Shown piece by piece: positions 31,728-47,878 of a stretch of DNA of 47,878 bases. Source of the stretch: an uncultured Xenococcaceae cyanobacterium (lineage in GTDB: Bacteria > Cyanobacteriota > Cyanobacteriia > Cyanobacteriales > Xenococcaceae); contig CALKUU010000047.1 in NCBI GenBank assembly GCA_937996665.1, positions 1 through 47,878 on the forward strand, written 5' to 3'. The translations under genes and the position numbers were made by a program. Below the pieces are notes generated by a model. It was not told where the DNA came from. It did no database searches and saw nothing but the letters and a program-made list of their open reading frames with translations. Each line of letters starts with the position of its first letter. Positions within the stretch are counted from its first letter, which is position 1.

Positions 31728-31733
31728 ACTTTT

Positions 31734-31755
31734 TTGGCTATCCAAAAATAGCCAA
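31734..31755. terminator. 8-bp hairpin in the hisF upstream region
   Basis: TTGGCTAT and ATAGCCAA pair perfectly around a CCAAAA loop. It follows the possible 29-codon ORF closely and would fit as its 3' hairpin. There is no T-tract after it on the plus strand. Confidence 0.4.
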
Positions 31756-32022
31756 CTAATCTAGTCCCCAAAATCACTCATTAATCCTGACTCTATTGAC
31801 CGAAAAGTGATCCACTAAATAAACACTCATTACAAAGATTCTAGTTTAGGGACTTTTAACAATTATCGTGATGAGATGCCCATTTTTCTCTTGAGAACAA
31901 ACAGTTTCTCGAAAAAAAATAAAAATCAGCAAGTTAATTTGGAAACAGCTACCTAAACAAGGATAATTAACATTGTACTAGTAGCTAACTAGCTAAAAAA
32001 GTTATTATTTTTTGACAATACA

Positions 32023-32790: not shown

Positions 32791-32823
32791 TGAACAGCAA
32801 TTCTATAGTAAATCTTAAATTGT

Positions 32824-32852
32824 ATATTTTTGCTAATTAACAGCAAAAATAT
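32824..32852. terminator. Stem-loop after hisF
   Basis: ATATTTTTGCT (32824-32834) and AGCAAAAATAT (32842-32852) are a perfect 11-bp inverted repeat with a 7-base loop, between the hisF stop and the next small ORF. The T-run is inside the left arm, so read on the minus strand it also has terminator character. Confidence 0.6.
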
Positions 32853-32887
32853 GTACTAGAATATAGAAGATTTTACATTTCGTAAGA

Positions 32888-33070
32888 ATGCTGATTCCAA
32901 TTCTCATAATCGACGTTGCGCTAGTAGCTTGGGCTTTGCATCTTATGCAGGAAGCCTTTGATTTGCAAGAATTCTCACTTATGCTTGCTGGAACCTTAGT
33001 GGCGACCTCTGCTGCGGCGATGATGTTTGTGTACTTCTTAATGGGCAACTGCCTAGATAAAATAGTATAG
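32888..33070 (+). CDS. Small two-helix membrane protein, function unknown
   Basis: The 60-residue product has two hydrophobic helices, LIPILIIDVALVAWALHLM and FSLMLAGTLVATSAAAMMFV, separated by an acidic hinge (QEAFDLQE) and followed by NCLDKIV. Codon choice is balanced and non-random for AT-rich DNA, which favours a real gene over the antisense frame at 32833-33048. It begins 36 bases after the hisF stem-loop. No family is recognised; cyanobacteria carry many short membrane proteins of this kind, often associated with photosynthetic or respiratory complexes, but there is no direct evidence here. Confidence 0.55.
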   Translation: MLIPILIIDVALVAWALHLMQEAFDLQEFSLMLAGTLVATSAAAMMFVYFLMGNCLDKIV

Positions 33071-33683
33071 TCTCATCATTTTTGTTATAAAAGTTTTTTC
33101 AAAAATTACAAATCTCTATCTTTCTCTCTGTTTACTGCAGTATTTAAACAACGAGTTAGGTTGATTTCTTCTCAGAATCCTAGAATTTTACAAATCTCAA
33201 GTATCTAACCAACTCTATTCGCAGGTTTGGCAAAAAAGATTAAAGAAACAGTGATTACCTTGTGAATCTCCAACTTTATTTTGTAGGGTGCATACAATCT
33301 ACACAATAGAATTTAGGCACCAACTACAATCTTAAATTAGAGCGTCAATTACTATTGACCAAATTTAACTAGCTTTAGAAGTTAAAGAAAATTTATAGTA
33401 ATGCTGTATTTGCCGATAATGCGAGCTATTAATAGTTTTCTGGAAAACACTAATTGTGCAAGATTGAAGTTTACTCCACTCTGACCTCAGAGTAATTTAC
33501 CATCACAATAACACTCGAACCAATTGAGAAACTAATTATAATCAAAGCTTTAGATAGCACAAATAAGGATAATCATATTCAGATACAAATATCCATCTAA
33601 TCACTAATGAGAAATGATTAATCCAATTAGATAAAACAGTCATCACTAAAAAAACACAACTGCATTGAAAATAATAAAAATTA
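33071..33683. other. 613-bp AT-rich region without recognised genes
   Basis: It lies between the small membrane protein gene and tRNA-Gly. Short ORFs occur (for example a 27-codon frame at 33402) but none has persuasive composition or a ribosome site. No RNA gene or long repeat was seen. Confidence 0.5.
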
Positions 33684-33754
33684 AGCGGATGAGGGGAATC
33701 GAACCCCTAGCTTTAGCTTGGAAGGCTAAGGTATTACCACTATACGACATCCGC
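33684..33754 (-). tRNA. tRNA-Gly (anticodon TCC)
   Basis: On the minus strand the cloverleaf is complete: acceptor GCGGATG/CATCCGC, D stem GTAT/ATAC, anticodon stem TTAGC/GCTAA with loop CTTCCAA (T33, anticodon TCC), and T stem AGGGG/CCCCT with loop TTCGATT. The discriminator is T; the 3' CCA is not encoded, and an AT-rich tract follows. Confidence 0.96.
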
Positions 33755-33861
33755 AATCGCTAGCCTTAATCAGCGAACTTCATATTAACAGATAATTGGG
33801 TGCATTCGTCAAGTATTCAAAATAAATCAAGTCATTGCAGCTCAATCATCGTATTAACAGC

Positions 33862-34059
33862 TCAAACAAGCGGAGTATGACCAACTTCGATAATTGCTGA
33901 TTTAATCAGATCTTCAGTGAGATGGCTGGTAATTAACAATGTCTTGCTCACTAAATCAACATCAATAGCCGCATTGTCATCTTTTTTCAAGATCGCCTCT
34001 CGTACTGTGTCGACACAGCCCTCACACATCAAACTAGGAATGTTTATTTGTAGTTGCAA
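33862..34059 (-). CDS. Heavy-metal-associated (HMA) domain protein, copper-chaperone-like
   Basis: The 65-residue protein is a single HMA fold. QLQINIPSLMCEGCVDTVREAI carries the metal-binding CEGC (CxxC) after beta-strand 1, then helix 1, and the family ending IIEVGHTPLV. Such proteins (Atx1/CopZ type) carry Cu(I) to P-type ATPases. The start is a TTG at 34059. It gives the correct family N-terminus, a strong AGGGAG ribosome site lies about ten bases upstream, and no in-frame ATG occurs before the metal motif. The metal and partner are inferred. It lies upstream of tRNA-Gly on the same strand. Confidence 0.82.
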   Translation of the reverse strand: MQLQINIPSLMCEGCVDTVREAILKKDDNAAIDVDLVSKTLLITSHLTEDLIKSAIIEVGHTPLV

Positions 34060-34170
34060 ATTTATTTCTCTCCCTAAAAACAGTCTAATTTTGATAGCTT
34101 AAGTGTGATGATAGTGATTCATATTGACCAATCACCACAAGAGTTAGCAATAACCGCTTAGCAAACTTAA

Positions 34171-35271
34171 TTAAATAGTAACTAGGCTCTCTAAAGCCAA
34201 TTTATCAATTAGGCGATCGCAATCAAAATGTTGTTCCATAAGCTGAATTACTCTTTTCACCTTAACTGCTTCTCGAATAGGCACGCGACCAAATGCAGCA
34301 TCAACAACTTCTACTGTTGTCAAAGTATCAGAATCTACAGCCAAAATCGGAATCTCCAAATCTTCTGCTCGCTCTAAGATAAAAGACTTGGGTGCAACAT
34401 GACCAGTCAAAATTAAACAATTAGTTGCTGTTTCGAGGGCAGCCATCTGTAAATCAGTGCGATCGCTACCTGTAACCACAACCATATTCGTTCTCTGCCT
34501 AAAATATTCCAGCGCAGAGTTCACATTCATCGCACCGATAGTTAAACTCTCAACCATCAAGTCTAAGCGATTAGAACAGCATAATACTTGCGCTTTTAAA
34601 CGCTGAGAGAATTCCCGCACACTCACACTGTTAAGTAAACGATCTCGGGGAATAGCACCCAACACAGGAATATGTCTATTTTCTAAATATGGCTTGACCG
34701 CTTGCTCCACAGAAGACATCTCGGACTCAGCAATGTCATTAATCACTACTCCGAGCAAACGGTCACCTAAGAGTTTTTTAGCTGCCAGGAGATTAGCAAC
34801 AGTAGACAGCTCATTGTAACGAGTCACTAGTAAAATTGAGGCATCAATGGTTGCAGCAATTTCATCCGCAGACAAACTAAAAACGTTACCCGCCGAAAGA
34901 TTATTAGGACCTTCTACTAAAATAAAAGGACTCTCAATCGCACCAATGTAATTACGAAGCTGCTGACTATAATCTTGGACATCTTCACCAATAAGCCGAG
35001 TTTTTAAAACCTGAGCATCTAAATGCATAAAAGGAGTCGACTTCTGAGATTGCCATCTTTCGGGAGTTAGCCCAAGATTATTTGCCAAAAAGTTTATATT
35101 TTGCGGATTAGCATTAATCAAGCTATCGTCACCACAACTGCCCAGAGGTTTACAGTACGAGGCTAAAATGCCCTTGTGCAACAGTTGATACATAATGCCC
35201 AAAGTCGTTGTAGACTTACCGCCATGAGCTTCAGTTGAACCTATTAATAAACATTTGGCAGGTTTTGCCAC
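34171..35271 (-). CDS. BioD-like P-loop plus DRTGG domain protein (phosphotransacetylase-like)
   Basis: The 366-residue protein starts with a P-loop of the dethiobiotin-synthetase/AAA_26 type, LIGSTEAHGGKSTTTLGIMY. A mid-section follows with FILVEGPNNLSAG and VVINDIAESEMSSVE. The C-terminal DRTGG domain has MVVVTGSDRTDLQMAALE and LILTGHVAPKSFIL. This is the N-terminal part of large phosphotransacetylases, but the catalytic acetyltransferase domain is missing. Its function in cyanobacteria is unknown; a regulatory nucleotide-binding role is likely. GTG at 35271 is the start, with GGGAG upstream. The 41-base gap to ebsA suggests co-transcription, so a link to type IV pili or cell-surface regulation is possible. 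Confidence 0.78.
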   Translation of the reverse strand: MAKPAKCLLIGSTEAHGGKSTTTLGIMYQLLHKGILASYCKPLGSCGDDSLINANPQNINFLANNLGLTPERWQSQKSTPFMHLDAQVLKTRLIGEDVQDYSQQLRNYIGAIESPFILVEGPNNLSAGNVFSLSADEIAATIDASILLVTRYNELSTVANLLAAKKLLGDRLLGVVINDIAESEMSSVEQAVKPYLENRHIPVLGAIPRDRLLNSVSVREFSQRLKAQVLCCSNRLDLMVESLTIGAMNVNSALEYFRQRTNMVVVTGSDRTDLQMAALETATNCLILTGHVAPKSFILERAEDLEIPILAVDSDTLTTVEVVDAAFGRVPIREAVKVKRVIQLMEQHFDCDRLIDKLALESLVTI

Positions 35272-35312
35272 TTCCCCACTCCCTTTGATTGCGATGATAT
35301 TTTTGATAACTA

Positions 35313-35687
35313 CTAATCAAAGCGTAGCAACTTTTTGTAAAATTCCCGAGGAAAATCTGTCAAGTGAGTACTTTTAAAGTCAATAATCACTCCAATCAGG
35401 TAGTCAATAAATTCGGAGTTAGACAAAGTAGTTTCATAACTCAGCTCTGCCTGACCATCAAATTGCAGGCGACAACGAGTTAATTCAGAAGGTAGTTTAG
35501 AAACATACCAACTAGCTGCAAAAGGAATAGGCTCTCCGCCTTGAATCTTACGTGTCCCTTCTAAAGAACCTTTACGGTATAAGGAAATAGCATAAGGCAA
35601 CCAATTATGTTTATTTTTTGCGTAATAGGGCATATAAATAACTACGTCTGCTCTACCAGCCGGTTTTAAACTTTCAATAGTTGACAT
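35313..35687 (-). CDS. ebsA: EbsA, type IV pilus biogenesis / biofilm self-suppression protein
   Basis: EbsA was described in Synechococcus elongatus as essential for pilus assembly and for suppression of biofilm formation. The 124-residue protein shows the family motifs DVVIYMPYYAKNKHNWLPYA, ISLYRKGSLEG, GGEPIPFAASWYVSKLP and CRLQFDGQAELSYETTL. It is probably cytoplasmic and associated with the pilus ATPases. It precedes the BioD/DRTGG gene by 41 bases on the same strand and is divergent from a small unknown gene. The name rests on recognised motifs, not on a search. Confidence 0.82.
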   Translation of the reverse strand: MSTIESLKPAGRADVVIYMPYYAKNKHNWLPYAISLYRKGSLEGTRKIQGGEPIPFAASWYVSKLPSELTRCRLQFDGQAELSYETTLSNSEFIDYLIGVIIDFKSTHLTDFPREFYKKLLRFD

Positions 35688-35799
35688 AATATAAAAAATC
35701 TTAGTTGTCTAAATTGTTGATTTCTAGATAAAGTTAGGAATCAATTTCCCTAATTGTCACCTTTATAACACCAGTTTTAGATAATCACTTCCCTAGAAA

Positions 35800-36294
35800 A
35801 TGACATTAGACCTTCAACTCAAAAACTTAGTTACAGAAGCAGCTAATCATCAAGTTGCACCACTTGTAATTCAACAAGCTATAGTCCCTGTTTTTGAGCC
35901 AATCGCCAAACAACTACAGCATTTACATTTTTACCTACTACAAAACAATCAAGAGGATTGGATAATTTCAGTCATTAGCAAAAATGCTGGTAGTGGAGAG
36001 CTTGCAAGCGATCGCCTACAAGATACATCAGCTAAAAAAGTTATTTATGCTTTTAGTTCCTTAGAAGATGCCCAAAACTTTCCAGCTAGTAAAGCTCAAA
36101 ATCTAGTTGCAGTAAAACTACCAATTATTGAAATTTTATTCCAATTTTTTATTATTCAGCAACTAGACAGTCTTATTTTCTTCGATCAGCAGAGAAATCT
36201 TAAACAAGGTCTAGAAGTTGATCAAGCCGATCTGCGAACTCAAATTCAGACCAGAATTTTACAACTCAATTCTCTCCCCCCAGATATCGCCTAA
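35800..36294 (+). CDS. Conserved-looking soluble protein, function unknown
   Basis: The 164-residue protein is alpha/beta in character: amphipathic helices at the start (LQLKNLVTEAANHQVAPLVIQQ), then WIISVISK and VIYAFSSLEDAQNF, and a hydrophobic segment LPIIEILFQFFIIQQLDSLIFF too short and mixed to be a clear membrane helix. The C-terminus is polar. I do not recognise the family. It is divergent from ebsA with 112 bases between the starts. Codon use resembles its neighbours, which supports a real gene. Confidence 0.65.
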   Translation: MTLDLQLKNLVTEAANHQVAPLVIQQAIVPVFEPIAKQLQHLHFYLLQNNQEDWIISVISKNAGSGELASDRLQDTSAKKVIYAFSSLEDAQNFPASKAQNLVAVKLPIIEILFQFFIIQQLDSLIFFDQQRNLKQGLEVDQADLRTQIQTRILQLNSLPPDIA

Positions 36295-36443
36295 ATTTTA
36301 CTAATACGATAAAAGCAATGGTTATTCGAGATTAGTAAACGAATAATAATAAATCTTACTAAGATCATAAATATTTATCTCTAGCCTGTTGAAAAAGAAA
36401 GACAAAAAAACTTTTTTCGTGGAAAATAAATCGATATTCTCAG

Positions 36444-36944
36444 ATGCAGATCATCATCACAATGGCTCACAATCATTCCAGTCCCTCTTTGCATGAACAA
36501 GAGGAATATCCTTGTCCAGTCTGTCACTATGGCAAGATTACTAACATGACAATGATGGAAACATTCTCTTGTAGTTTTTGTCAGCATATTTTCACGATTA
36601 ACTTCGAGAGAAAGCTGCTAAAAATGATTGATTCCCAAATACCATTGTCTTGGCTTTGGAATGGTAGACGGTGGCAAAGCGATCATCAGACACAAAATAA
36701 TTTAGGACTGGCTTATATCTTATTTGGGCTGCTCTTTATCGGCTTACCAACTGGCATAATCGCCCTAGGTACTTTCATTTTCCCTCCCCTTCCAGAAAGT
36801 CCTTTTGCCTGGTTTACGCCCTTCTGGATAATTTGCACATTTATAGCTCACTTGTTTTGTTTCCTGTTTGTAGTTATTGAATACTATCAATGGCCTCTGG
36901 GAATTTATTTGAATGCACTTAAGCGCAAGGTCATATCAACCTAA
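36444..36944 (+). CDS. Zinc-ribbon plus two-helix membrane protein
   Basis: The 166-residue protein has a probable zinc ribbon: CPVC at residues 24-27 and CSFC at 43-46. Two membrane helices follow (about 86-112 and 127-148) with a proline-rich loop between them (FPPLPESPFAWF). A short basic tail ends the protein. This matches a type of small cyanobacterial membrane protein without assigned function. The ATG at 36444 is used; a second ATG at 36462 (MAHNHSS) is a good alternative. It converges with ccmK4, and a strong inverted repeat lies between them. Confidence 0.7.
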   Translation: MQIIITMAHNHSSPSLHEQEEYPCPVCHYGKITNMTMMETFSCSFCQHIFTINFERKLLKMIDSQIPLSWLWNGRRWQSDHQTQNNLGLAYILFGLLFIGLPTGIIALGTFIFPPLPESPFAWFTPFWIICTFIAHLFCFLFVVIEYYQWPLGIYLNALKRKVIST

Positions 36945-37009
36945 ATAAATTAAGTTAGCGAACAAGATTCGCCCTCGTCACAGACAAAATAATCGATTAC
37001 ATCCATACA

Positions 37010-37046
37010 AAAGTGCGAGCAGAACAGGACTTTCTACTCGCACTTT
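37010..37046. terminator. Bidirectional stem-loop between the zinc-ribbon gene and ccmK
   Basis: AAAGTGCGAG (37010-37019) and CTCGCACTTT (37037-37046) are a perfect 10-bp repeat, and after one mismatch AGAA/TTCT extends the stem. On the minus strand the stem runs into CACTTTTGTAT, giving a modest T-run. It separates two convergent genes. Confidence 0.8.
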
Positions 37047-37091
37047 AATGATTATCAAAGTTTATTTTGAGATATCTAAACTTAAAGATAA

Positions 37092-37445
37092 TTAGTTAGA
37101 ATTACCAATTGGTAACATTCTCCCTTCAACGCGATCGCGGTAAGGTTGAACTTCTTCACTGTAGTCAATTGGTAAAACTGCACAAACATTTTCGTGAGGT
37201 CGAGGAATAATAACCCAAGATTCTAGAGTTGCACCTTCTGCTTTTTTCACAGCCTCAATACCTGCATCCATAGCAGCTTTAACCTCAGAAACATCACCAC
37301 GGATGTTGACATTAAAACGAGCACTACCAACCCGAATATAGCCAACCAAGGTGACTCTACCAGCTTTAACCATTGCATCTGCTGCGGCTAATATACCTGG
37401 AAAACCCTTTGTTTCAATAGATCCAACTGCAGATTGCGCTGGCAT
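37092..37445 (-). CDS. ccmK4: Carboxysome shell hexamer protein, CcmK4-like
   Basis: CcmK proteins are BMC-fold hexamers tiling the beta-carboxysome shell; the central pore passes bicarbonate and RuBP/3-PGA. The 117-residue protein starts MPAQSAVGSIETKGFPGILAAADAMVK (partly shared by all CcmKs). It carries VGYIRVGSARFNVNIRGDVSEV and WVIIPRPHENVCAVLPIDYSEEVQPYR, which place it near CcmK4 rather than CcmK1/2 (those have VGYEKIGSGRVTVIVRG). CcmK4 is usually encoded with CcmK3; no CcmK3 gene is next to it here. It may assemble as homohexamers or with a CcmK encoded elsewhere. The flanking genes are rnc upstream and a convergent unknown. Assignment to K4 is by motif memory. Confidence 0.85.
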   Translation of the reverse strand: MPAQSAVGSIETKGFPGILAAADAMVKAGRVTLVGYIRVGSARFNVNIRGDVSEVKAAMDAGIEAVKKAEGATLESWVIIPRPHENVCAVLPIDYSEEVQPYRDRVEGRMLPIGNSN

Positions 37446-37622
37446 AGAATAGCTCCTTTACCTGAATTGAAAAATAATATCTATAATAATGTTTAACAAA
37501 ATTACAGTTTACGAATTCTAATTTTAACTTTTATTTTGCCTTTTGAATATAGTTAAATCGCAGAATAAACTGATTAGAGCAATTATGAGTATTTATCTTT
37601 AGTGCACTTGAATTAAAATAAG

Positions 37623-38339
37623 TTACTCCTGAGAAGAGTCAAAATTAAGCTTGATAAATTCTAAAGCTGCCTGAGCTGCATTTTTTTCTGCATCTTTTTT
37701 ACGACGCCCTTCACCACAGCCATAAACCTCACTATTGATTAAGACTTGAACAGTAAATCTTTTATCGTGATCTAGTCCTGATTCGGTAATTATCTGATAT
37801 TGAGGAACTATGTGGTATTTAGCTAAAGACCATTGCTGTAAACGATTTTTAAGATCGATAAAACTAGTTAGTTTCGACTTTGCCAGCTCAACTGTTAATT
37901 CTTCGGCTAACAGTGTAAAAATTGGATTAACAAATTCAGCAACCGCAATTATTCCTGAATCTAAAAAGTAGGCTCCAATAATTGCCTCAAAAGTATCACT
38001 TAATAAAGAAGGATTACTTCTGCCATCGTTTTTAATTACCCCTTGACCCAAACGAAGAATTTCACCAAGATTCATATCAGCAGCAATCTTACTAAATTGC
38101 TGCTCATCTACTAGACGCGATCGCAAACGAGTTAATTCTGCTTCACTTAAATTTGGATAAAGACGATAAAGAAGATCACCCACCAAAAAACCTAAAACAG
38201 CGTCCCCTAAAAACTCTAGTCTTTCATTATGCTGTTTACATTTTTGATTCTCATTCACATAAGAGCGATGGGTGAGAGCCTGCTGTAATAAGCTTTGATC
38301 TTGAATTGCTGGTAACAAATATTTCTGTATATTATCCAT
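37623..38339 (-). CDS. rnc: Ribonuclease III
   Basis: RNase III cuts double-stranded RNA, processing the 30S rRNA precursor and regulating some mRNAs. The 238-residue protein has the signature ERLEFLGDAVLGFLVGDLLY and the metal-binding segment LLSDTFEAIIGAYFLDSG. The C-terminal dsRNA-binding domain includes LKNRLQQWSLAKYHIVPQY and a GCGEGRRKKDAEKNAAQAALEF ending, only partly quoted here as RRKKDAEKNAAQAALEF. The length is typical; many cyanobacteria carry two rnc genes. ATG at 38339. It lies 177 bases upstream of ccmK4 on the same strand and is divergent from the sigma-like gene. Confidence 0.95.
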   Translation of the reverse strand: MDNIQKYLLPAIQDQSLLQQALTHRSYVNENQKCKQHNERLEFLGDAVLGFLVGDLLYRLYPNLSEAELTRLRSRLVDEQQFSKIAADMNLGEILRLGQGVIKNDGRSNPSLLSDTFEAIIGAYFLDSGIIAVAEFVNPIFTLLAEELTVELAKSKLTSFIDLKNRLQQWSLAKYHIVPQYQIITESGLDHDKRFTVQVLINSEVYGCGEGRRKKDAEKNAAQAALEFIKLNFDSSQE

Positions 38340-38457
38340 AAGAAAAAATTTATTTTTTTTGTACTAGATTAAGTTTTATTGCAAATAATATAAAAAAAGG
38401 ATTTTCTTACGGAGTACTTTATAAGAGAAGTCAATCAACTTGAAAATTCGAGAAGTT

Positions 38458-38489
38458 TTTTTAGGGTCATACGCATTTTTAGGGTCATA
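38458..38489 (+). repeat. Tandem direct repeat containing the ribosome site of the sigma-like gene
   Basis: TTTTTAGGGTCATA occurs at 38458-38471 and again at 38476-38489, an 18-base period. The second copy ends four bases before the ATG at 38494 and provides the AGGG Shine-Dalgarno sequence at about nine bases spacing; the first offers a duplicate with no start codon. It may be a duplicated translational site or an operator for autoregulation. Confidence 0.85.
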
Positions 38490-38493
38490 GCAT

Positions 38494-39435
38494 ATGAGCT
38501 TTGTCAAAGTTTTTGACACCAAGGACTATCAAAAGCAACCGCAATTATTTCAAAAGCTAAAACTAAAGCTTAAGAGTAATCAGCCAAAAAGAAAACAAGA
38601 CTTAATTATTAATCAAATTGTAGATTTGACTTTGAAATCGCGACCCTTATGTCGTCTCTATCAAGGACAAATTTTAGATGGTATTCACAAAAAAATATAT
38701 ACAGAAGTACATAATCTTGTACAAGAAGAAATTAGGAATATTGTTGACAAAGAAAAATCAATCAACGTTCTTACATTTGAAACCGTCAATCAGCTTCAGT
38801 TGAAATGTTTTCAAGATAGTTTAAATGATTATTCCTTAAAGCAACTTGCTTTATATGCCCAAAAGCAGCCGCCCAAAAGTTCCTTGAGAAATCACTGCCT
38901 AAATGAATTAGTTAAAGCAATTCAAATATCAAAAAAACTCTGCAAACCTCATCGAGAACTTTTTAATAGCCAGTTTTATCCTCTTATTTATGAAGAAGCT
39001 ATGGGAGCAACCATGACTTATATCTGTATAAACATAGACAAATATGACCCTTCTAGAAGTCAGGGCAAATTTATGAGCTGGGTTAATTTTAAATTAAATA
39101 AGTTCGTTTTAGATTGTCGTCGAAAATTCGATCTTTCTTCTTCATTCGATTTTTTGCCATTGTCTGATTTTGATATGATTCCCTATCAACCTAAGCCAAT
39201 TAGTTCAGGAGAAAAACTATATAATTTTATTCAACAAGATCCAGATCAAAAATTTAAAAAAACTTACCTACCTAGTAATCGTCAGATTACTTTTCAGGAT
39301 GTAGCTATTCAAAGATTATCTGGATATACCTGGAAAGAAATTGCTCAAAATCTAGATAGTAATCCCTCCGTTTTAAGTGCTTTTTATCAAAGAAGTTGTC
39401 ATAAATTTAAGCAACTATTAGACAAGGAAATATAA
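38494..39435 (+). CDS. Sigma-70-like / ECF-like RNA polymerase sigma factor, first gene of the CHAT-CHASE2 cassette
   Basis: The 313-residue protein has a helical N-terminal half with no recognised domain. A segment resembling sigma region 2 follows (about 168-212): YEEAMGATMTYICINIDKYD, then FMSWVNFKLNKFVLDCRR, a pattern of hydrophobic helix, KYDPS and a C-terminal basic helix typical of ECF factors. The C-terminal part (about 265-310) with LSGYTWKEIAQNLDSNPSVL resembles a region 4 helix-turn-helix. The match is partial and an anti-sigma-type or adaptor role remains possible. It is followed by a DUF1822 gene (52-bp gap) and a CHAT-CHASE2 gene on the same strand. A tandem repeated ribosome site precedes it. 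Target promoters are unknown. Confidence 0.72.
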   Translation: MSFVKVFDTKDYQKQPQLFQKLKLKLKSNQPKRKQDLIINQIVDLTLKSRPLCRLYQGQILDGIHKKIYTEVHNLVQEEIRNIVDKEKSINVLTFETVNQLQLKCFQDSLNDYSLKQLALYAQKQPPKSSLRNHCLNELVKAIQISKKLCKPHRELFNSQFYPLIYEEAMGATMTYICINIDKYDPSRSQGKFMSWVNFKLNKFVLDCRRKFDLSSSFDFLPLSDFDMIPYQPKPISSGEKLYNFIQQDPDQKFKKTYLPSNRQITFQDVAIQRLSGYTWKEIAQNLDSNPSVLSAFYQRSCHKFKQLLDKEI

Positions 39436-39487
39436 CTTTAATTCAAGCAATAGTCTACCGAAACAAACACACTACAATTTCATCAAC

Positions 39488-40531
39488 ATGCCTTTATCCA
39501 ATATTTATTCTCAGAATTTACCCAAAATATCTTTGACACTATCAATGTGGAAAAAGGCTAAAGACTTTGCAGATAGACAAGCAAATTACCAAAAAGCACA
39601 ACAAGTTTATTTAAATACTTTGGCAGTATTATCTGTCAATCAATACTTACAAAGATCAGGAATCCAAACAGATTTAAAGAATAGTAATGGTTATAATTTA
39701 GCCATGCAGACAATGCTTGATAATGCGGAACTATATCTTCCTGAATACGGAGTAATTAGCTGTCGCCCAACAGTATTATCTGACAATTTTTTAATCATTC
39801 CAGAAGAGACTAAAACAACTGCGATCATGCAGCTTGCAGTAATCATTAGTTCAGATTTTTGTTCTGCAAAACTTGTGGGTTTTATACCCCAAACCGAGAG
39901 AGACAGAATTCCCTTAGAGGAATTAACATCTATCGTTCAATTGCCTAATTTCTTAGAAGATTATCGATCTAGGGCAGCAGTTTCTTATACTCAACCTGAG
40001 ATAGCTTCCTATAATCAGCAGGAAGAAAAGTCAAAATTGAATGGTTGGCTATCAGGCAATAACCAAGAAAAATGGTCGAAGTTAACTGAACTAGTTATTC
40101 AAAAATTAAACCTCAATCTGTTAGATCATTCAGAGCGATCGCTAGCTTTTCGTGGTTCGATAGTGGAGTCGATAAACACTGCCGAAGTAATGAACAGAAA
40201 TGATTTATTTGAGGGAGCTAGTAAGATAAAAGTATGGAAATTAAACCAACAAGGTCAAGATTATACAATTGCAATCATCGTTAATATCTTGCCAATTTCA
40301 AAAGAAGAGGTAGACATTTCTATCCAGTTTCTCCCAACGGGAAATCATACGCATCTACCAGAAGGAATCATTATTAAAATTCTTAATGATCAACAAGAAA
40401 CTATTCTGCAAATCCAAACAACCGTTAACAACGATAAAATCGAGTTTTGTTTAAGCGGACAACCGCAAGAAACATTCACCATTCAAGGAGTATGCGATCA
40501 TCAGGTAAAAACAGAAACATTGATCATTTAA
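39488..40531 (+). CDS. DUF1822 family protein, middle gene of the cassette
   Basis: DUF1822 is a cyanobacterial family of unknown function that I associate with neighbouring sigma-like and CHASE2 proteins. The 347-residue protein starts with a helix-rich region (FADRQANYQKAQQVYLN, AVLSVNQYLQRSGIQ, NGYNLAMQTMLDNAELYLP). A beta-rich part follows, with CRPTVLSDNFLIIPEET and KLVGFIPQ, then a variable linker with a SGNNQEKWSKL stretch. The C-terminal beta domain begins about residue 245 (KVWKLNQQGQDYTIAIIVNI) and ends FTIQGVCDHQVKTETL. No catalytic motif is seen. Lying between a sigma-like and a CHAT-CHASE2 gene suggests an adaptor or anti-sigma-like role, which is inference. Confidence 0.78.
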   Translation: MPLSNIYSQNLPKISLTLSMWKKAKDFADRQANYQKAQQVYLNTLAVLSVNQYLQRSGIQTDLKNSNGYNLAMQTMLDNAELYLPEYGVISCRPTVLSDNFLIIPEETKTTAIMQLAVIISSDFCSAKLVGFIPQTERDRIPLEELTSIVQLPNFLEDYRSRAAVSYTQPEIASYNQQEEKSKLNGWLSGNNQEKWSKLTELVIQKLNLNLLDHSERSLAFRGSIVESINTAEVMNRNDLFEGASKIKVWKLNQQGQDYTIAIIVNILPISKEEVDISIQFLPTGNHTHLPEGIIIKILNDQQETILQIQTTVNNDKIEFCLSGQPQETFTIQGVCDHQVKTETLII

Positions 40532-40606
40532 GTAACGCTTCTGATCCGGATCTTATGATCTCAAAGCAAGCTATGGTAAAAAAGTCTCCGATCTTTTCTT
40601 TCAGTA

Positions 40607-42988
40607 ATGGCAAATCTCATAGTTTTCCAGTTAACTGGTGATTTTACCAGCGGCTTTCAAGTTACCCTCGAAGCATTTCTTAAGAACAATAGTTTTGATG
40701 GTCGAAAACGTATTCAACTGCCACCTGAGCCTCAACTACTACAAACCCTAACATCTTGGCAACAAGAATATCGAAAATGGGGCGCTAACAAACGCATCAA
40801 GGTTAAAAAAGTAATTCGAAGTAAGAGTACAGGGAAAAACTTAAGTTTTTATGGTCAACAACTCGTTGATCAATTTCAGTTTTGGCTAAGCTCCCCTCGA
40901 TTTCAGGAACTTAATTCTTGGGTATATGCCAGACTTAATCATCAAGAATCGGCACGAATTTTGATTTCTGCTGATAACCAAAAGCTACATCAACTACCTT
41001 GGCATCAGTGGGAAGTAATTCAAGATCGACCTAATATTGCAATTGCAGTTAGCAAATTAGATTTTAAGGGAATATCACAACAACCAAAAAACATATCTAT
41101 TGCCAAATCTCAGGTTAGAATTCTGGCTATTTTTGGGAACAGTCAAAATATCGATGTCAAGCACGATCTCAAGACCCTAAAAACTTTAGATAATACCCAT
41201 CTCAAACCTTTATTTGAACCTAGTCGAGAAGAACTCTTTAAGTATCTATGGTCTGAGAGTTGGGATATTGTTTTTTTTGCTGGTCATAGTGAAACGATTA
41301 ATGGACAAGGGATTATTCATCTCAATCGCCGCGAAGTCCTGAGTATCAAGGATCTAAAGTATGCGTTTAAAAAAGCAATTGACAACGGTCTCAAACTTGC
41401 TATTTTTAATTCTTGCGATGGCTTGGGTCTTGCCTATGCCTTGGGTGAATTATCTATTCCCCAACTGATTGTAATGCGTGAACCAATTATTGATCGTGTT
41501 GCTCACAAATTTTTAGATTTTTTTATTAGTGAATACAGTAATGGTGAACCTCTTCACATCGCAACTCGAAAAGCGCGAGAAAGATTACAAGCTCTAGAAA
41601 GTGAATATCCTTATAGCAGTTGGTTGCCAGTTCTCTATCAAAATCAGGCTACTCCAGCCCTTTCCTGGTCTGAGTTAATCTCAAGTCCAGAAGAGAATGT
41701 ACCGAAATTAACACCGATCAACTATCTTGCTTATAGCATGGTGGGAATCTTAGCAATTGGTTTGTCTTGGCTATTCTCGGTGAGTGGTTTACTCCAAAAT
41801 CAAGAGTTGAATAGTTACGATCACGCTTTGAGCTTAAAGCCCATAGAACCAAAAGATCAAAGAGTTTTGATCGTAACTATTGATGATCAAGATATCAATT
41901 ATCAAGATCAGCAAAAAATGATTCGTAAAGGCTCTTTAGCAGATCAAGCCTTAGCCGAACTCTTAACTAAAGTAAAACCCTATCAACCGATCGCGATCGC
42001 CTCAGATATAGTCCATGATTTTCCCTATCAACCAGAATTTCGCTCTAACATTTTAGGTCACGACAACTTCATCACTATTTGTCGCATTAGAATTGACGAA
42101 AAACGTGACACCTTAAGCCCCCCACCTCAAATCAATCCTGAACAAATAGGATTTAGTAATATCGCTCTTGACCAAGATGGGGTGATTCGAAGACATATCT
42201 TGGGGATGGCACCTTTCTCAGATAACAAGAACTGTCAAAGCCAAGTTTCTTTGGGCTTAACAATGGCAATCAGATATCTAGATTATCTGGCTCTCACCAA
42301 CAATCAACAACAAAGGTATCCTCGTAGCCAAGCTAAGAATAAGCAAATCAAAATTGGCGAAGTTGTTTTTCCTCAACTCAGTGCCAACAGTGGTGCTTAT
42401 CAACTAGATAAACAAGAAAATCTTGGTTATAAAATTCTACTCAATGCTCGCAATACACCCTTTACGACAATTTCTCTGCGCAAGTTACTTCAAGAAAACT
42501 CTTCTCAACAATTAAAATCTCTAATTTCAGGAAAAATAATTTTTATTGGCGTTGATAGCATTAATAGCGATCGCTATCATATTTCTGGTAGTAAAAAAAT
42601 TGCCAACGAAAAAGTCCAAGGTGTTGTCATTCATGCCCAAGCAGCTAGTCAAATTATTAGCGCTGTTCTCGATCAAAGAAAACTGATTCGTTGGTCTTCG
42701 AATAGAACCGAATTTTTGTGGATTTCGTTCTGGAGCGTAATCGGGTTAAGTATCACAGGGTTAACATATCTCAAATCTTTGCAGAAATATCGTTTAGTTA
42801 TAGTAGCTAGCTTAACTACTGCGATCGCCCTATTCATTCTTTATTCAATATTTATAGGACTACTGATCTTTTACAGTTATTGGATTCCTATCATTGCGCC
42901 TAGTCTGGCTCTTCTGCTCTCAACGACAGGAGGCTTATGGCTGCGATCCGTAGAGATATCTCAACAAAATCTAGTCACTAAACAATAA
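40607..42988 (+). CDS. CHAT protease-like / CHASE2 sensor membrane protein
   Basis: The 793-residue protein joins a CHAT (caspase-like) domain at about residues 60-345 to a CHASE2 extracytoplasmic sensor. In CHAT, His227 lies in VFFAGHSETINGQG and Cys270 in FNSCDGLGLAYALG, the expected His/Cys dyad with intact spacing. TM1 is about 374-396. CHASE2 spans about 400-690 and carries the typical VLIVTIDDQDI, ILGHDNF and GKIIFIGVDSINSD segments. Three C-terminal helices lie at about 703-722, 731-751 and 754-781; a kinase, cyclase or other output domain normally found after CHASE2 is absent. So the output is probably the N-terminal CHAT protease. The natural reading is a membrane receptor that proteolyses a partner on signal. 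The ATG at 40607 is in a different frame from an upstream ATG at 40573. Confidence 0.88.
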   Translation: MANLIVFQLTGDFTSGFQVTLEAFLKNNSFDGRKRIQLPPEPQLLQTLTSWQQEYRKWGANKRIKVKKVIRSKSTGKNLSFYGQQLVDQFQFWLSSPRFQELNSWVYARLNHQESARILISADNQKLHQLPWHQWEVIQDRPNIAIAVSKLDFKGISQQPKNISIAKSQVRILAIFGNSQNIDVKHDLKTLKTLDNTHLKPLFEPSREELFKYLWSESWDIVFFAGHSETINGQGIIHLNRREVLSIKDLKYAFKKAIDNGLKLAIFNSCDGLGLAYALGELSIPQLIVMREPIIDRVAHKFLDFFISEYSNGEPLHIATRKARERLQALESEYPYSSWLPVLYQNQATPALSWSELISSPEENVPKLTPINYLAYSMVGILAIGLSWLFSVSGLLQNQELNSYDHALSLKPIEPKDQRVLIVTIDDQDINYQDQQKMIRKGSLADQALAELLTKVKPYQPIAIASDIVHDFPYQPEFRSNILGHDNFITICRIRIDEKRDTLSPPPQINPEQIGFSNIALDQDGVIRRHILGMAPFSDNKNCQSQVSLGLTMAIRYLDYLALTNNQQQRYPRSQAKNKQIKIGEVVFPQLSANSGAYQLDKQENLGYKILLNARNTPFTTISLRKLLQENSSQQLKSLISGKIIFIGVDSINSDRYHISGSKKIANEKVQGVVIHAQAASQIISAVLDQRKLIRWSSNRTEFLWISFWSVIGLSITGLTYLKSLQKYRLVIVASLTTAIALFILYSIFIGLLIFYSYWIPIIAPSLALLLSTTGGLWLRSVEISQQNLVTKQ

Positions 42989-43131
42989 TTAAGGATAAAC
43001 GCGGAAAATTAATTTTTGCTATCAAGATAGTTAAAATTTAAGGAAATCTAAGCTTATAAACAATAGCTAAGAACTAAATACTTGATAGCATCGTTATCAA
43101 AGAAATCATCTAATTACTGTACCAAACTAGT

Positions 43132-43671
43132 ATGACTGCTCAAGCTGAAATCTCTGCGCTCGAAACCTTGCCGCTGCTTCCTTATCTAGATGACAATGGG
43201 GCTCTTAATGATGAGCTACAAAAAAAAATTGGCGTTTATGCTATTTTTGATCAGACCAAAGTTCTTCAATTTGTTGGTTACTCGCGGGATATTCACACCA
43301 GTCTCAAGCAACATCTAATCCGTCAACCGCAAAATTGCTATTGGCTCAAATTTCAAATCATTGAAAAACCCAACCGCACTTGGCTAGAAGGAACTCGTCA
43401 AGCTTGGATTAGCGAGAATGGCAAAGTTCCCTTCGGAAATGAAGCGAATGAAAAATCTTGGATTCAAGCAATTGATACTAAGTTTGCTATGACAGAAGAA
43501 GAAAAGGCACAGTATCAACTAAGCGATGAAGTCCAGCAAATTAAAATACTTAAAAACGTAGCTAGAAGAGTACAAAAAGACATAGAACAACAGTTAAGCG
43601 ATCGCCAAGTGAATGTCGAAATTCGTTTTAACCCTAAACTGAAAGAGCAAGGTTTATTAGACTTAAAGTAA
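43132..43671 (+). CDS. GIY-YIG-like protein, cyanobacterial type
   Basis: The 179-residue protein has a degenerate GIY-YIG fold. GVY at residues 34-36 replaces GIY, and FVGYSRDI (residues 47-54) stands for YIG. WLEGTRQAWI could supply the catalytic Glu, but the arginine in the first helix is not obvious. This family member, found in cyanobacteria and some plants, may bind nucleic acid without cutting. The C-terminal part is a coiled basic/acidic helix (DEVQQIKILKNVARRVQKDIE). It follows the CHAT-CHASE2 gene by about 143 bases on the same strand and precedes the Ser/Thr kinase; membership of the same transcript is uncertain. Confidence 0.7.
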   Translation: MTAQAEISALETLPLLPYLDDNGALNDELQKKIGVYAIFDQTKVLQFVGYSRDIHTSLKQHLIRQPQNCYWLKFQIIEKPNRTWLEGTRQAWISENGKVPFGNEANEKSWIQAIDTKFAMTEEEKAQYQLSDEVQQIKILKNVARRVQKDIEQQLSDRQVNVEIRFNPKLKEQGLLDLK

Positions 43672-43820
43672 TAAATGCTGAGAAAAGAAGTGTCCAACCA
43701 CGACAGTCTTACTAACTAACTAGCATTGCAACAGTTTGCATTGAAGCCAATTTTATAAATCAATTTTTTTATAACTCAATTTAAAAAACCAGTCAAAAAC
43801 CACGGAGAGTAACAACCAAA

Positions 43821-45593
43821 ATGAGTAGCACTTCTCTAATTAGTAACCGTTATCGAATTCTTGAAACTATTGCTAGGGGAGGTTTCGGTGAAACTTATTT
43901 GGTGGAAGATTTACACCTACCATCAGGCAGAAAATGCGTTTTAAAGAAATTAAAGCCTGTTGTTGAGAAAGCTCAAATTTCTGGCTGGATTAAAGAAAGA
44001 TTTCAAATTGAAGCTGCAACCTTAGAAGAATTAGGTTCTGCTAATCAACAAATTCCTGAACTTTATGCTTACTTTTCTGAAGAAGAACAATTCTATCTAG
44101 TTCAAGAATGGGTACAAGGGGAAACCCTCGCGCAGCAATGGCAGAGAACAGGAAATTTTTCCGAGCAAGAGGTAGTTAATGTTTTGGCTAAAACCTTGCC
44201 AATTCTCGACTTCATTCATAGCCGCAAAATAATTCACCGCGATCTCAAACCTGATAATTTAATTATTCGCACTCAAGATAATCTCCCGGTCTTAATTGAT
44301 TTCGGTGCAGTCAAAGAAACCATGAGTACGATCATGGCTGAACCGCAAAGTGTTAGTAAAATGTCGGCAGTAATTGGCACCCCTGGTTATATGCCCTCGG
44401 AGCAAGCAGCAGGACGTCCAGTCTATTCGAGCGATCTCTACAGCTTAGGTCTAACTGCAATTTTTCTGCTCACGGGTAAATCCCCTCAAGATTTAGAGAT
44501 TGATCCCAGCTCAGGAGAATTTATTTGGCAAGATCCAAATTTAGATATTAGTCCTCAACTCAGGGACATTTTAAGCCAAGCGATTCGTTTTCACCCTCGC
44601 GATCGCTTCTCCCAGGCAAGAGACATGTTAGCAGCATTGCAACATGCATACGAGCCAAATCATCACGAAAAGAATAATCACCCTAAAGTCCCAACCAAAG
44701 CAACAGTAAAGGTTGCACCTGCTCTCAAAGACGATGGCAAAAGCTTTATGGGCACAGTAGCTTACAATCAAGCGCGTAATATTCCTCGCCCAGAAAACAA
44801 ACAAAAACCAGGATTGTTAACTAAAGTTTTCTGGTTTTTCTTAATTGCAGGCGGAATCACAGTAGGAACTTTTGCTACTGGTCTTTATGCCCTTAATAAT
44901 TGGTGGCAAGGTCGCCAAGAGGCAATTTCCAAAACTCAAGTGGAGCCAAAAGATCAACCAAAGGTCGTTCTGTCTAAACCTGATAAGCAATCGACTTCGC
45001 CGACTAAAGAAGAAAACACCATTCGAATCAGCGACCTCTTCAAAACAGATCAAGAACCTAATTTAGAAAAAGAAGCAAAAACTGAGCAAACTTCAACCTC
45101 AGAACCTGAGACTCAACAACCTGAACCAGTAGTTGCCCCCGAAAAAAGACCAGATGTCTTTGTCCAAACCAAAACTCTCGATCAACCCAAAGTCAGTCTG
45201 CAAATCTTATCGACCGGCATAACCGAAGCAGAATTACTGAATATCTTAGGTCAACCTTCTACCTCTAGAAATGACCCCAAAAACAATGGCAAGATCCTAA
45301 TTTACCAAGACAAAAATAGCAGCAATACCAATTTTGCTTACCATGCCAATAGCAAAGGCAAAATCCGACAAGCAAATATAGCTCTCTCTTCAGATTTGAG
45401 CTTAGGCATCATGCAAGATAGTATGGCTAAATTATTGGGAGGAACTCCTTCTGTCGATGCTAAAAACAAACTTCGTGCTGTTTATGATCGCAAAACCAGT
45501 CGCCAGTCTTTCAGCATTAATCGACTCCAAGGCAGCATTTATCGAGATTATAAAAACCGAGTCAATATTTCAGTGTGGGAAAAAAATTCCTAG
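43821..45593 (+). CDS. Membrane-anchored Ser/Thr protein kinase with extracytoplasmic C-terminal domain
   Basis: The 590-residue protein carries a Hanks-type kinase domain (1-275): glycine loop IARGGFGETYLV, ATP-binding Lys42 in CVLKKLKP, catalytic Asp141 in IIHRDLKPDNLII, DFG at 160-162, and the activation-segment GTPGYMPSEQAAG. A basic linker precedes one membrane helix (about 338-360). An acidic/Pro/Gln-rich linker follows, then a globular domain (about 455-590) with TGITEAELLNILGQPSTSRN and KLRAVYDRKTSRQSFSINRL. I recall this C-terminal domain from other cyanobacterial kinases. The kinase is probably inside and the C-terminal domain outside. Substrates are unknown. It lies after the GIY-YIG-like and CHAT-CHASE2 genes on the same strand. 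Confidence 0.9.
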   Translation: MSSTSLISNRYRILETIARGGFGETYLVEDLHLPSGRKCVLKKLKPVVEKAQISGWIKERFQIEAATLEELGSANQQIPELYAYFSEEEQFYLVQEWVQGETLAQQWQRTGNFSEQEVVNVLAKTLPILDFIHSRKIIHRDLKPDNLIIRTQDNLPVLIDFGAVKETMSTIMAEPQSVSKMSAVIGTPGYMPSEQAAGRPVYSSDLYSLGLTAIFLLTGKSPQDLEIDPSSGEFIWQDPNLDISPQLRDILSQAIRFHPRDRFSQARDMLAALQHAYEPNHHEKNNHPKVPTKATVKVAPALKDDGKSFMGTVAYNQARNIPRPENKQKPGLLTKVFWFFLIAGGITVGTFATGLYALNNWWQGRQEAISKTQVEPKDQPKVVLSKPDKQSTSPTKEENTIRISDLFKTDQEPNLEKEAKTEQTSTSEPETQQPEPVVAPEKRPDVFVQTKTLDQPKVSLQILSTGITEAELLNILGQPSTSRNDPKNNGKILIYQDKNSSNTNFAYHANSKGKIRQANIALSSDLSLGIMQDSMAKLLGGTPSVDAKNKLRAVYDRKTSRQSFSINRLQGSIYRDYKNRVNISVWEKNS

Positions 45594-45644
45594 CCAGAGC
45601 TAATCAAAATCTCGCAACCAAGAAAATTCTCCCGCTGCACTTGA

Positions 45645-46442
45645 TTATTCTGCCTGGCGATAGAACTGAGGTAACTTGACCGCAGCAATAGAACTAATCG
45701 GCTGCTTACTTTTAGCGATCGCAGGAGTTACTCTTTCTTTTTCTTCTCTAGATAGATTAACTTCGTCTACTTGATGTTTGGCGACGTTAACTTCTCCATA
45801 ACTAGCAGACCAAGCCTGAATCGGCTCATTTCGCACATTAGTAAACGCTCTTTCGGGAGCAGGATCAACTTGAGCTTGAGCAAATTGATATTTTTGACGC
45901 TCTAAACGAGTGGTTAACTCTTTAATTGTTTGGGTTTTGTCACTTAAATCAAGATCTTTCTCGACAATAGCATTCCGCAACTGCACAAATTCTTGATCTA
46001 GTTGGCTAGTTTTCTGTTGAGAAGTTTCCAGTTGTAAAGTCAGATTCTCAATTGTCGCTTTCTGGTTATGTATTTCTCGTTCGTAGCCAATCAGTTTCTG
46101 AGAAAATTCGGCTATTTCCTCTTCATAGCGATTAATTTTTTCAGCTTGCTTAGCCGAATAGACATTATTGCTCTGCAAACTTTTTTCCTGCTCTGCTAAA
46201 GACTGATTAGTTTCGATAACTTCTTGTTCCAATTGAAAAACTTTTTTCAACAATTTGCGGTTATGTTCTCTTAATTTATGAGCTAGTTTATGCCAATTAA
46301 TATTCTTCTCATGATCTTGAATTTCAGGATTTGCCGATTTTGACTCTGGATTAGATTCTTCTTGAATAGAAGAATCTTCTTCGTCGGGAGCAAAATGAGC
46401 AATTAAATTCTCCGCGGACAACTTATTATCAAATTCACTCAT
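45645..46442 (-). CDS. Coiled-coil protein, function unknown
   Basis: The 265-residue protein has an acidic, low-complexity N-terminus (DEEDSSIQEESNPES) and then a coiled coil from about 48 to 190, rich in Gln, Glu, Lys and Leu with long heptads such as LKKVFQLEQEVIETNQSLAE and TIENLTLQLETSQQKTSQL. The C-terminal 70 residues are basic and proline-containing. No membrane helix or signal peptide is seen. It might be a structural or cell-division-associated scaffold; there is no family assignment. It converges with the kinase gene, separated by 51 bases, and is followed upstream by csaB on the same strand. Confidence 0.65.
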   Translation of the reverse strand: MSEFDNKLSAENLIAHFAPDEEDSSIQEESNPESKSANPEIQDHEKNINWHKLAHKLREHNRKLLKKVFQLEQEVIETNQSLAEQEKSLQSNNVYSAKQAEKINRYEEEIAEFSQKLIGYEREIHNQKATIENLTLQLETSQQKTSQLDQEFVQLRNAIVEKDLDLSDKTQTIKELTTRLERQKYQFAQAQVDPAPERAFTNVRNEPIQAWSASYGEVNVAKHQVDEVNLSREEKERVTPAIAKSKQPISSIAAVKLPQFYRQAE

Positions 46443-46669
46443 GGTTGGTTAAATAAATGTAATATTTCTCAAGCCTAGTTACAGTAACTTAATATTTCTA
46501 CAGGACTATATTTTTTACCTTAATCAATAGGAATAAATTACTAGTCTCAGGTCTTTATTTCAGATTAAGCTTTGGTCAAATACAGCTTATACCCTCACTT
46601 TCAAATTGCCAAGTCAATTATTTACTCTTGAAATTAAGGTAATTATTTTGCTAGTAAATATAAGCCCTC

Positions 46670-47707
46670 TCACAAAAATTCAGATAGTAACTTTTGATGA
46701 GTTAAAGCTTGACTCTTAATTGTTTTAATACTATCAATTTTTAAAAAATTAGCCTTATTAAAATGCTCAATCCAAACATTTGTAATTATTTCTACACTAT
46801 TAGGGATTTCTGCCATCTCCCAACCAGGAAACTCGTATTCCATCATTAACTGGCTAACCTTAGGATCGTAACTCAGGGCAAAACAAGCAGATTGTTCAGC
46901 AGCAGCCATAATCAAACTATGTAACCGCATCCCGATTGTCATGGATACATGCTGGAATAAACCTTTTAGTTCTCTGGGATCTTGCAAAGAAATAATTTGA
47001 CTAGTTTCAGGAAGATCTTGATGGAGCTTCTTGGCGATCGCTAAATCTTTGGCTGCTTGGAAAGGAACGAGCAAGATAAAAGTATTAGTTTGTTCTTGAA
47101 AAGATTGCAGAGCTTTACTGAGAAGTTCTAGACGTTGGGGAGTAAGTTCAGGATGCGATCGCAAATTCACAGCAACTTTAGGTGCATCTGATTTAATTAC
47201 GTCACTAGGAATAGATTTACTGGTTAATGCCCACACAGGATCGGGAGCAACCAGAGGCTCCATCTGCCAATCTCTGACTAACTTAGCTGAAGCCTCATCT
47301 CTGACACTAACAGCATCACAACCAAGCAAAACATTACTAGTTAGCCACTTAGTAAAACTACGATTTAAAGGACCAATTCCCTGCGCCCAAGCGATCGTCT
47401 TCAGACCCTGTTGTTGAGCTAAAGCCATCAAACCACCGTAGTAAATCGGACTAGCAAAGCTAGTCGCATCTTGCATCAAACTACCGCCTCCCCAAATAAA
47501 GCAATCTGATTGTTTGAGTGCTTTCCACACAGCAAAGCTAGATTTGCGCGGACAACTAGCCACATCATAGAGTTTGCGAGTTTCGGCTGGATTAGCAGAT
47601 AGCACAATCGGCTTAACTTCTGGAGGCAGCATTTGCAGGAGAGACACGAGTAAAGCTTCATCACCAGCATTGCCTTGTCCATAGTAGCCACATAATAATG
47701 CTTTCAT
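46670..47707 (-). CDS. csaB: Polysaccharide pyruvyl transferase CsaB
   Basis: CsaB adds ketal-linked pyruvate to secondary cell-wall polysaccharide, which in several bacteria anchors S-layer (SLH) proteins. The 345-residue protein begins KALLCGYYGQGNAGDEALLV. It has FIWGGGSLMQDATSFASPIY, IAWAQGIGPLNRSFTKW and the C-terminal segment MTIGMRLHSLIMAAAEQSACFALSYDPKV (partly quoted here), with the conserved His in RLHSL. All are CsaB hallmarks. The length matches. Pyruvylated polymers binding SLH domains would suit cyanobacteria, whose outer-membrane porins have SLH domains. The ATG at 47707 starts at the conserved N-terminus. Confidence 0.9.
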   Translation of the reverse strand: MKALLCGYYGQGNAGDEALLVSLLQMLPPEVKPIVLSANPAETRKLYDVASCPRKSSFAVWKALKQSDCFIWGGGSLMQDATSFASPIYYGGLMALAQQQGLKTIAWAQGIGPLNRSFTKWLTSNVLLGCDAVSVRDEASAKLVRDWQMEPLVAPDPVWALTSKSIPSDVIKSDAPKVAVNLRSHPELTPQRLELLSKALQSFQEQTNTFILLVPFQAAKDLAIAKKLHQDLPETSQIISLQDPRELKGLFQHVSMTIGMRLHSLIMAAAEQSACFALSYDPKVSQLMMEYEFPGWEMAEIPNSVEIITNVWIEHFNKANFLKIDSIKTIKSQALTHQKLLSEFL

Positions 47708-47878
47708 TTTGCTAGTTTCTGCCTTGTGTCCAAATCATACTTGTGCCTAGATCATACAGGTGATTTCAACTTTTGCCATTGCCAACATCATTCGTTTAAA
47801 AAATTAGTGCGAGTTGTCAACTTACCAAGGATTTGCTTTCTTTCGATTAAGCCAAAGCTGCGACTGTCATCACTATGC
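47708..47878. other. End of window, upstream of csaB
   Basis: The final 171 bases hold the csaB upstream region. No gene start, RNA or repeat can be recognised before the window ends. Confidence 0.5.

Follow-up and report, generated by a model that had tools for sequence, protein, structure and literature searches.

What do three neighbouring genes of an uncultured Xenococcaceae cyanobacterium do together, when they encode a sigma-like protein, a protein of the DUF1822 family and a caspase-like protease carrying a membrane sensor? The genes lie in a 47,878-nucleotide stretch of DNA (GenBank assembly GCA_937996665.1, contig CALKUU010000047.1), referred to here as the window. All three open reading frames are on the forward strand, with gaps of 52 bp between the sigma and DUF1822 genes and 75 bp between the DUF1822 and CHAT genes (Table 1), in agreement with a first-pass annotation that had described three same-strand frames with short gaps. 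The start given there, position 38458, is not the beginning of a frame; it is where a 14-bp direct repeat, situated just before the ATG, has its first copy. The assignments of the second and third genes hold: the second protein is indeed DUF1822-like (PF08852, E 8e-33, Pfam), and the third combines CHAT, with the His227 and Cys270 motif residues both present, and CHASE2. The source genome encodes one DUF1822 domain, eight CHAT domains and two CHASE2 domains. A role in conflict response, offered as an option in the first-pass annotation, is putative: none of the three proteins matches a PADLOC model of known anti-phage defence systems, and the search of viral contigs gave no relatives.

Table 1. 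Features of the three-gene locus and its upstream region (positions in the window)
Feature	Position	Strand	Basis
HLR1/RpaB-box-like promoter element, degenerate copy	38366..38396	+	PWM, 17.4 bits
14-bp direct repeat TTTTTAGGGTCATA, two copies 18 bp apart	38458–38471, 38476–38489	+	Window search
Divergent ECF-type sigma-70 factor gene (predicted)	38494..39435	+	313 aa ORF
Sigma gene architecture: degenerate sigma2-like, sigma2, sigma4	38494..39435	+	AF2 model, structural matches
Duplicated degenerate sigma-2 domain, residues 8–108	38515..38817	+	Profile-profile match to own sigma2
Canonical sigma-2 domain, residues 112–215	38827..39138	+	SigC region 2 match, Z 8.9, rmsd 2.6, 86 residues
Sigma-4 (HTH) domain, residues 238–313	39205..39432	+	AF2 model and structural matches
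DUF1822 gene	39488..40531	+	347 aa ORF
DUF1822 N-terminal alpha/beta domain, residues 14–167, candidate sigma-binding	39527..39988	+	Model; kept beside sigma in family f24; co-variation
Low-confidence linker, residues 168–240, candidate cleavage/docking region	39989..40207	+	pLDDT <50 in parts
DUF1822 C-terminal Ig/FN3-like beta-sandwich, residues 244–347, candidate protease-docking	40217..40528	+	Fold match; co-variation with EACC2/CHAT
EACC2-like–CHAT–CHASE2 membrane protein gene	40607..42988	+	793 aa ORF
Conserved N-terminal domain before CHAT (EACC2 by position)	40607..41116	+	Own HMM, 123 homologues
CHAT caspase-like protease domain	41114..41641	+	Pfam, E 1e-10
CHASE2 extracytoplasmic sensor domain	41771..42748	+	PF05226, E 1e-45

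The fold of the first protein predicts that it is an ECF sigma factor. Its AlphaFold2 (AF2) model, based on an alignment of 33 homologues, reaches a pLDDT of 91 and is most similar to sigmaE (1or7; Z 9.9, 150 residues aligned over two domains) in a structural ranking by VIA-align, with SigK, SigW and region 2 of SigC also at the top. All 50 structural matches listed are sigma factors. Model and alignment return the ECF layout of sigma2 and sigma4 joined by a short linker, without sigma3. The E-values from Foldseek are weak, which probably reflects the freedom of the two sigma domains to shift against one another. In the PDB sequence profile search RpoE ranks first (E 0.004), Pfam returns no match for the window protein, and NCBIfam returns no curated profile match, with a best hit of only E 0.056. 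Within the same family, 15 of the 33 members match TIGR02937 (sigma70-ECF), the gene in the same slot of locus L117 matches Sigma70_r2 (E 2e-10), and a Planktothrix plasmid homologue is annotated by NCBI as a sigma-70 family factor. The missing match of the window protein is a failure of single profiles in a divergent member, whose identity is carried by the modelled fold. Since few members of the family match a Pfam sigma profile at E <0.1, Pfam-based surveys such as the 2024 catalogue of cyanobacterial sigma factors (PMC11119718) would probably miss most of them. The likeness to sigma regions 2 and 4 noticed in the first-pass annotation is therefore right by fold; overlooked there were the N-terminal ~100 residues, which form a second, degenerate sigma-2 domain.

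When the profile of residues 8–108 was compared with that of the protein's own sigma2, the two were collinear over 101 columns (E 8e-7, score 36). Sixty column-shuffled profiles used as a control scored at most 8, and the profile-profile comparison with the protein's own sigma4 gave no such alignment. An HMM built from these residues alone matches sigma2 of short homologues with E-values down to 1e-13. The predicted helices of the extra copy (15–27, 32–48, 64–86 and 95–109) follow a pattern that is repeated in sigma2 proper (112–124, 130–146, 162–183 and 193–211). The near-invariant Trp of region 2.3/2.4, which is Trp196 in the canonical copy, is absent from the extra one. Most homologues do not have residues 8–108, and the long form was found in the window's family, Xenococcaceae, and at loci L128, L133 and L174. 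The degenerate domain may tune the binding of DUF1822 or RNA polymerase in this clade. Being degenerate and N-terminal to an intact sigma2–sigma4, it could also be what CHAT removes if the protease cuts and thereby activates the sigma factor itself. However, the domain is missing from most homologous trios and the sigma factor shows no partial co-variation with CHAT (see below), and we consider direct cleavage of sigma very improbable.

Upstream of the sigma genes, 29 of 85 relatives carry an element with two or fewer mismatches from the published HLR1 box, and in most long-form loci the -10-like box that comes after it is ~11–12 bp closer. We relied on this test of a published pattern, as de novo motif finding in the same regions was unstable between data halves. 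We rejected a reading of the element as a promoter recognised by the ECF factor itself, since it agrees better with HLR1, the published direct repeat of RpaB, in the reverse direction. The 14-bp repeat TTTTTAGGGTCATA has two matches only in the window, and none of 100 shuffles yields two. It likely covers the ribosome-binding region of the sigma gene.

The model of the DUF1822 protein (AF2, pLDDT 84) consists of an alpha/beta domain and a beta-sandwich, joined by a linker in which Trp187 and Trp196 are invariant alignment columns. In the fold search the sandwich returned generic Ig/FN3-like matches (up to Z 8.0, to 3d33); no anti-sigma factor or Csx30 was among the matches listed, and the N-terminal domain was barely probed by them. 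A PDB sequence profile search gave no match, and neither did NCBIfam on 47 DUF1822 members, where no sequence link to Csx30 was seen. There are no TPRs in the AF2 model, and we found no membrane segment in the window protein.

The predicted catalytic residues of the third protein are His227 in the motif FFAGHS (codon 41285–41287) and Cys270 in IFNSCDG (codon 41414–41416). Of 123 related proteins, 119 retain the His motif and 121 the Cys motif. Hydrophobic segments at residues 374–392 and 736–754 flank or come after CHASE2. Among the homologues, the C-terminal module varies and can be CHASE2, nSTAND1 with WD40, TPR, Peripla_BP or an extra AAA domain. The single CHAT-CHASE2 protein as query found no relatives in the genome scan. 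An alignment as query found at least 557, and those kept are all titled cyanobacteria; none was found on viral contigs.

As a prediction this gene set is not new: Kaur, Iyer, Burroughs and Aravind (2021, eLife 10:e70394) had already proposed systems in which an EACC2–caspase protein, its sensor differing from case to case, is encoded next to DUF1822 and an ECF sigma factor. The window locus has the arrangement given in that paper, namely a caspase-fold or CHAT protease after a constant N-terminal domain, a variable C-terminal sensor, CHASE2 being among those described, and ECF sigma and DUF1822 neighbours. We use the name EACC2 for the N-terminal domain of the window protein on the basis of its position rather than of the alignment of Kaur et al. 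Unlike in our model, DUF1822 is called a TPR protein there, and the accessible part mentions neither a doubled sigma-2 nor a sigma–DUF1822 lineage free of CHAT. In the literature searched we found no experimental study of the trio.

To describe the neighbourhood, we surveyed 61 loci picked through DUF1822 or sigma matches and 80 picked through the CHAT part alone. Gene order is conserved across cyanobacteria. Together these loci contain 82 pairs of a sigma gene directly beside a DUF1822 gene on the same strand, and in 69 of them EACC2-CHAT comes next. Among the 70 CHAT-picked loci with enough upstream sequence, DUF1822 lies immediately upstream in 50 and the complete trio is in order in 29. 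Part of the set does stand alone at some loci, as would be expected if the three genes were merely co-located and acted separately; this is highly improbable, given that the CHAT gene comes after 69 of the 82 pairs, across many orders and also on plasmids, as in the non-pathogenic Picosynechococcus sp. PCC 7117, a candidate strain for laboratory work. Because 13 pairs have no adjoining EACC2-CHAT, and 20 of the 70 EACC2-CHAT loci have no adjoining DUF1822, CHAT may work in trans or on further substrates. The protease after the pair is also of different types, being EACC2-CHAT, TPR-CHAT (Picosynechococcus sp. PCC 7117) or trypsin-like (locus L121). Protease and sensor are thus swappable on the sigma–DUF1822 pair. 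As a separate observation, a DUF928 gene and a convergent TPR-CHAT gene often come after the trio.

A sigma–DUF1822 pair is also present in a deep sister lineage of small-genome Cyanobacteriota (family f24; 10 genera, 1.7–2.3 Mb), which is probably Gastranaerophilaceae. In 20 of the 21 genomes examined, a gene with the DUF1822 N-terminal domain directly precedes, on the same strand, an ECF sigma gene of canonical type (TIGR02937, E 1e-19 to 6e-20), and in the remaining one a contig end falls between the two. These proteins are 941–1083 aa long and keep only the N-terminal domain of DUF1822, at their start (Pfam E 2e-11 in locus L202). The three full-length ones examined continue with a long acidic stretch, one transmembrane segment and a TonB-like tail, a layout that from sequence looks anti-sigma-like. 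In the f24 loci examined, a zinc-ribbon NTPase gene comes after sigma and no CHAT was seen. The occurrence of these pairs without CHAT indicates that sigma and DUF1822 were probably linked before the protease joined them.

We then measured the co-variation of the three proteins over 50 non-redundant trios, using partial distance-matrix correlations (partial mirror-tree). Sigma and DUF1822 are correlated (0.47, P-value 0.001), as are DUF1822 and CHAT (0.26, P-value 0.003), and there is no link between sigma and CHAT (-0.08). The N-terminal domain of DUF1822 correlates with sigma2 (r 0.62), more than with the nearer sigma4, and the C-terminal domain with EACC2 and CHAT (r 0.76 and 0.71), in a gradient that parallels gene order and for part of which linkage could account. 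Since pairs without CHAT exist and DUF1822 co-varies with both neighbours, these data point to DUF1822 as the link between sigma factor and protease, not necessarily as the substrate. The same results bear on the mechanism favoured by Kaur et al., in which the protease mainly cleaves itself on sensing, sigma is activated later to mediate the response, and DUF1822 would be an adaptor and not an inhibitor. This published proposal for EACC2 systems agrees with a constant protease bearing variable C-terminal sensors. It does not sit easily with sigma–DUF1822 pairs that have no CHAT nearby, nor with a DUF1822 that co-varies with both sigma and protease, and we regard it as unlikely.

The division of DUF1822 into two halves has an experimentally tested counterpart in the CASP (Craspase) system of type III-E CRISPR, where the CHAT protease Csx29 cuts Csx30 and frees CASP-sigma (PMC10028731). 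The N-terminal part of Csx30 binds sigma and its C-terminal part is cut by CHAT (PMC10028731), the same split as seen in the co-variation of DUF1822. The two systems share a CHAT protease (TPR-CHAT in Csx29), a two-domain intermediate with a flexible linker and an ECF sigma factor. They differ in that type III-E is activated by crRNA–target RNA on Cas7-11, whereas the window system has a membrane sensor. We found no direct-repeat family or repeat array in positions 30000–47878 (18 kb) and no large effector ORF (Cas7-11) among those of 34000–47878. DUF1822 is most likely the partner of the sigma factor, and a candidate anti-sigma factor, because the f24 pairs lack CHAT and because its N-terminal part co-varies with sigma and its C-terminal part with the protease.

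Identical linkage and co-variation would arise if DUF1822, whose anti-sigma role is that of a candidate, were instead a positive partner of sigma, such as a chaperone or co-activator, and CHAT switched the system off by destroying DUF1822 or sigma. We hold this to be distinctly unlikely in view of the Csx30 precedent, where sigma, dedicated partner and sensor-linked protease work by inhibitor release. RseA and RsiW are built on the same inhibitor-release design. Membrane anti-sigma systems such as RseA/DegS, RsiW and FecR resemble the window system in coupling an envelope signal to proteolysis and ECF sigma release, and the f24 proteins recall them in their transmembrane segment and TonB-like tail. 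Unlike in those systems, it is the protease that carries the transmembrane segments and sensor in the window, with DUF1822 predicted to be soluble. HetF of heterocystous cyanobacteria is likewise a membrane-associated CHAT protein, with a weak match over the CHAT part (E 3e-6), but the window protein scores 25.6 bits against an NCBIfam equivalog cut-off of 1200, and HetF implies no sigma or DUF1822 partners.

Overall, we give a little better than an even chance to a partner-switching operon in which DUF1822 is an anti-sigma factor cut by CHAT after sensing by CHASE2. The N-terminal domain of DUF1822 would bind the ECF sigma factor and hold it inactive. The CHASE2 membrane domain would sense a ligand or the state of the envelope and activate the cytoplasmic CHAT domain on the same chain, which would cut DUF1822, probably in the linker or the beta-sandwich half. 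Cleavage would free sigma to start transcription of its putative target genes, as in Csx29–Csx30–CASP-sigma. The order from sensor to CHAT to DUF1822 to sigma, already put forward in the first-pass annotation, is favoured by our results, with DUF1822 as sigma partner; the cut in DUF1822 is a step that we infer. Two outcomes that would have spoken against the annotation's reading did not occur, as the neighbourhood is strongly conserved and the first protein is structurally like sigma factors. What counts against the model is that DUF1822 showed no relation to a known anti-sigma factor or to Csx30 in the searches above, that its window copy has no membrane segment, and that some loci have the sigma–DUF1822 pair or EACC2-CHAT alone.

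New here are the predicted sigma fold and doubled sigma2, the CHAT-free and probably ancestral pair, the modelled DUF1822 fold, the co-variation and the swapping of protease and sensor. Tentatively, and as something short of an even prospect, sigma–DUF1822 may be an ancient, phylum-wide sigma/anti-sigma module largely overlooked by Pfam surveys. Sensor-linked proteases (EACC2-CHAT, TPR-CHAT, trypsin-like) would have been plugged onto it repeatedly to give caspase-gated, Craspase-type switches without RNA guidance, and in the window clade the second sigma-2 would be promoter-blind, serving as decoy or as regulatory arm. Our co-variation results, together with the lineage that lacks CHAT, sharpen the published guess by suggesting which half of DUF1822 binds sigma and which meets the protease. 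If the proposed mechanism is true, it would assign a function to DUF1822, reveal a sigma family largely missed by Pfam surveys, and provide bacteria with a general switch that is driven by a membrane sensor, parallel to the RNA-driven one of CHAT, Csx30 and sigma.

Searching upstream of the sigma genes, we found a match to the published direct-repeat box of RpaB, HLR1, in reverse orientation and with at most two mismatches to the published pattern, in 29 of the 85 upstream regions. The same match occurred upstream of 4.8% of other genes and in 0% of shuffles. Matching loci from other genomes include L064, L078-L081, L087, L121, L130, L138, L171 and L192, plus others. A -10-like box follows the element at 17-19 bp, and in several loci with the long-form sigma factor, which carries an extra degenerate sigma-2 domain at its N-terminus, the box lies only about 6 bp after it. 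This RpaB-type element suggests that the operon is under light/redox control.

The window also carries two copies of TTTTTAGGGTCATA immediately 5' of the sigma start codon, a number reached in 0 of 100 shuffles.

Features of the window and of locus L128, with coordinates
Feature	Location	Remarks
HLR1-like promoter element	window 38366-38396	degenerate
Direct repeat TTTTTAGGGTCATA	window 38458-38489	perfect, 14 bp; copies 18 bp apart
GIY-YIG-like protein	window 43132-43671	179 aa; weak match, E 0.004
Ser/Thr protein kinase	window 43821-45593	
DUF928 gene and TPR-CHAT gene	L128:10357-14134	adjoin the trio; TPR-CHAT roughly 900 aa

The GIY-YIG-like and kinase genes downstream in the window fall outside the conserved trio. 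DUF928 and TPR-CHAT genes are similarly placed in L083, L088, L166 and L200; these neighbours of the trio are often convergent, and the second CHAT protein may be part of its system. At L156 and L168, two head-to-head DUF1822-CHAT pairs flank a single sigma gene, which suggests one sigma factor served by two sensors.

In family f24, from small-genome Cyanobacteriota, a conserved locus (L202-L205) encodes a DUF1822-domain membrane protein with a TonB-like tail, a canonical ECF sigma factor and a zinc-ribbon STAND-like NTPase. Flagellar-export genes lie upstream in L203 and L204, the only two loci with upstream sequence. The f24 locus seems to represent a previously undescribed system for envelope signalling.
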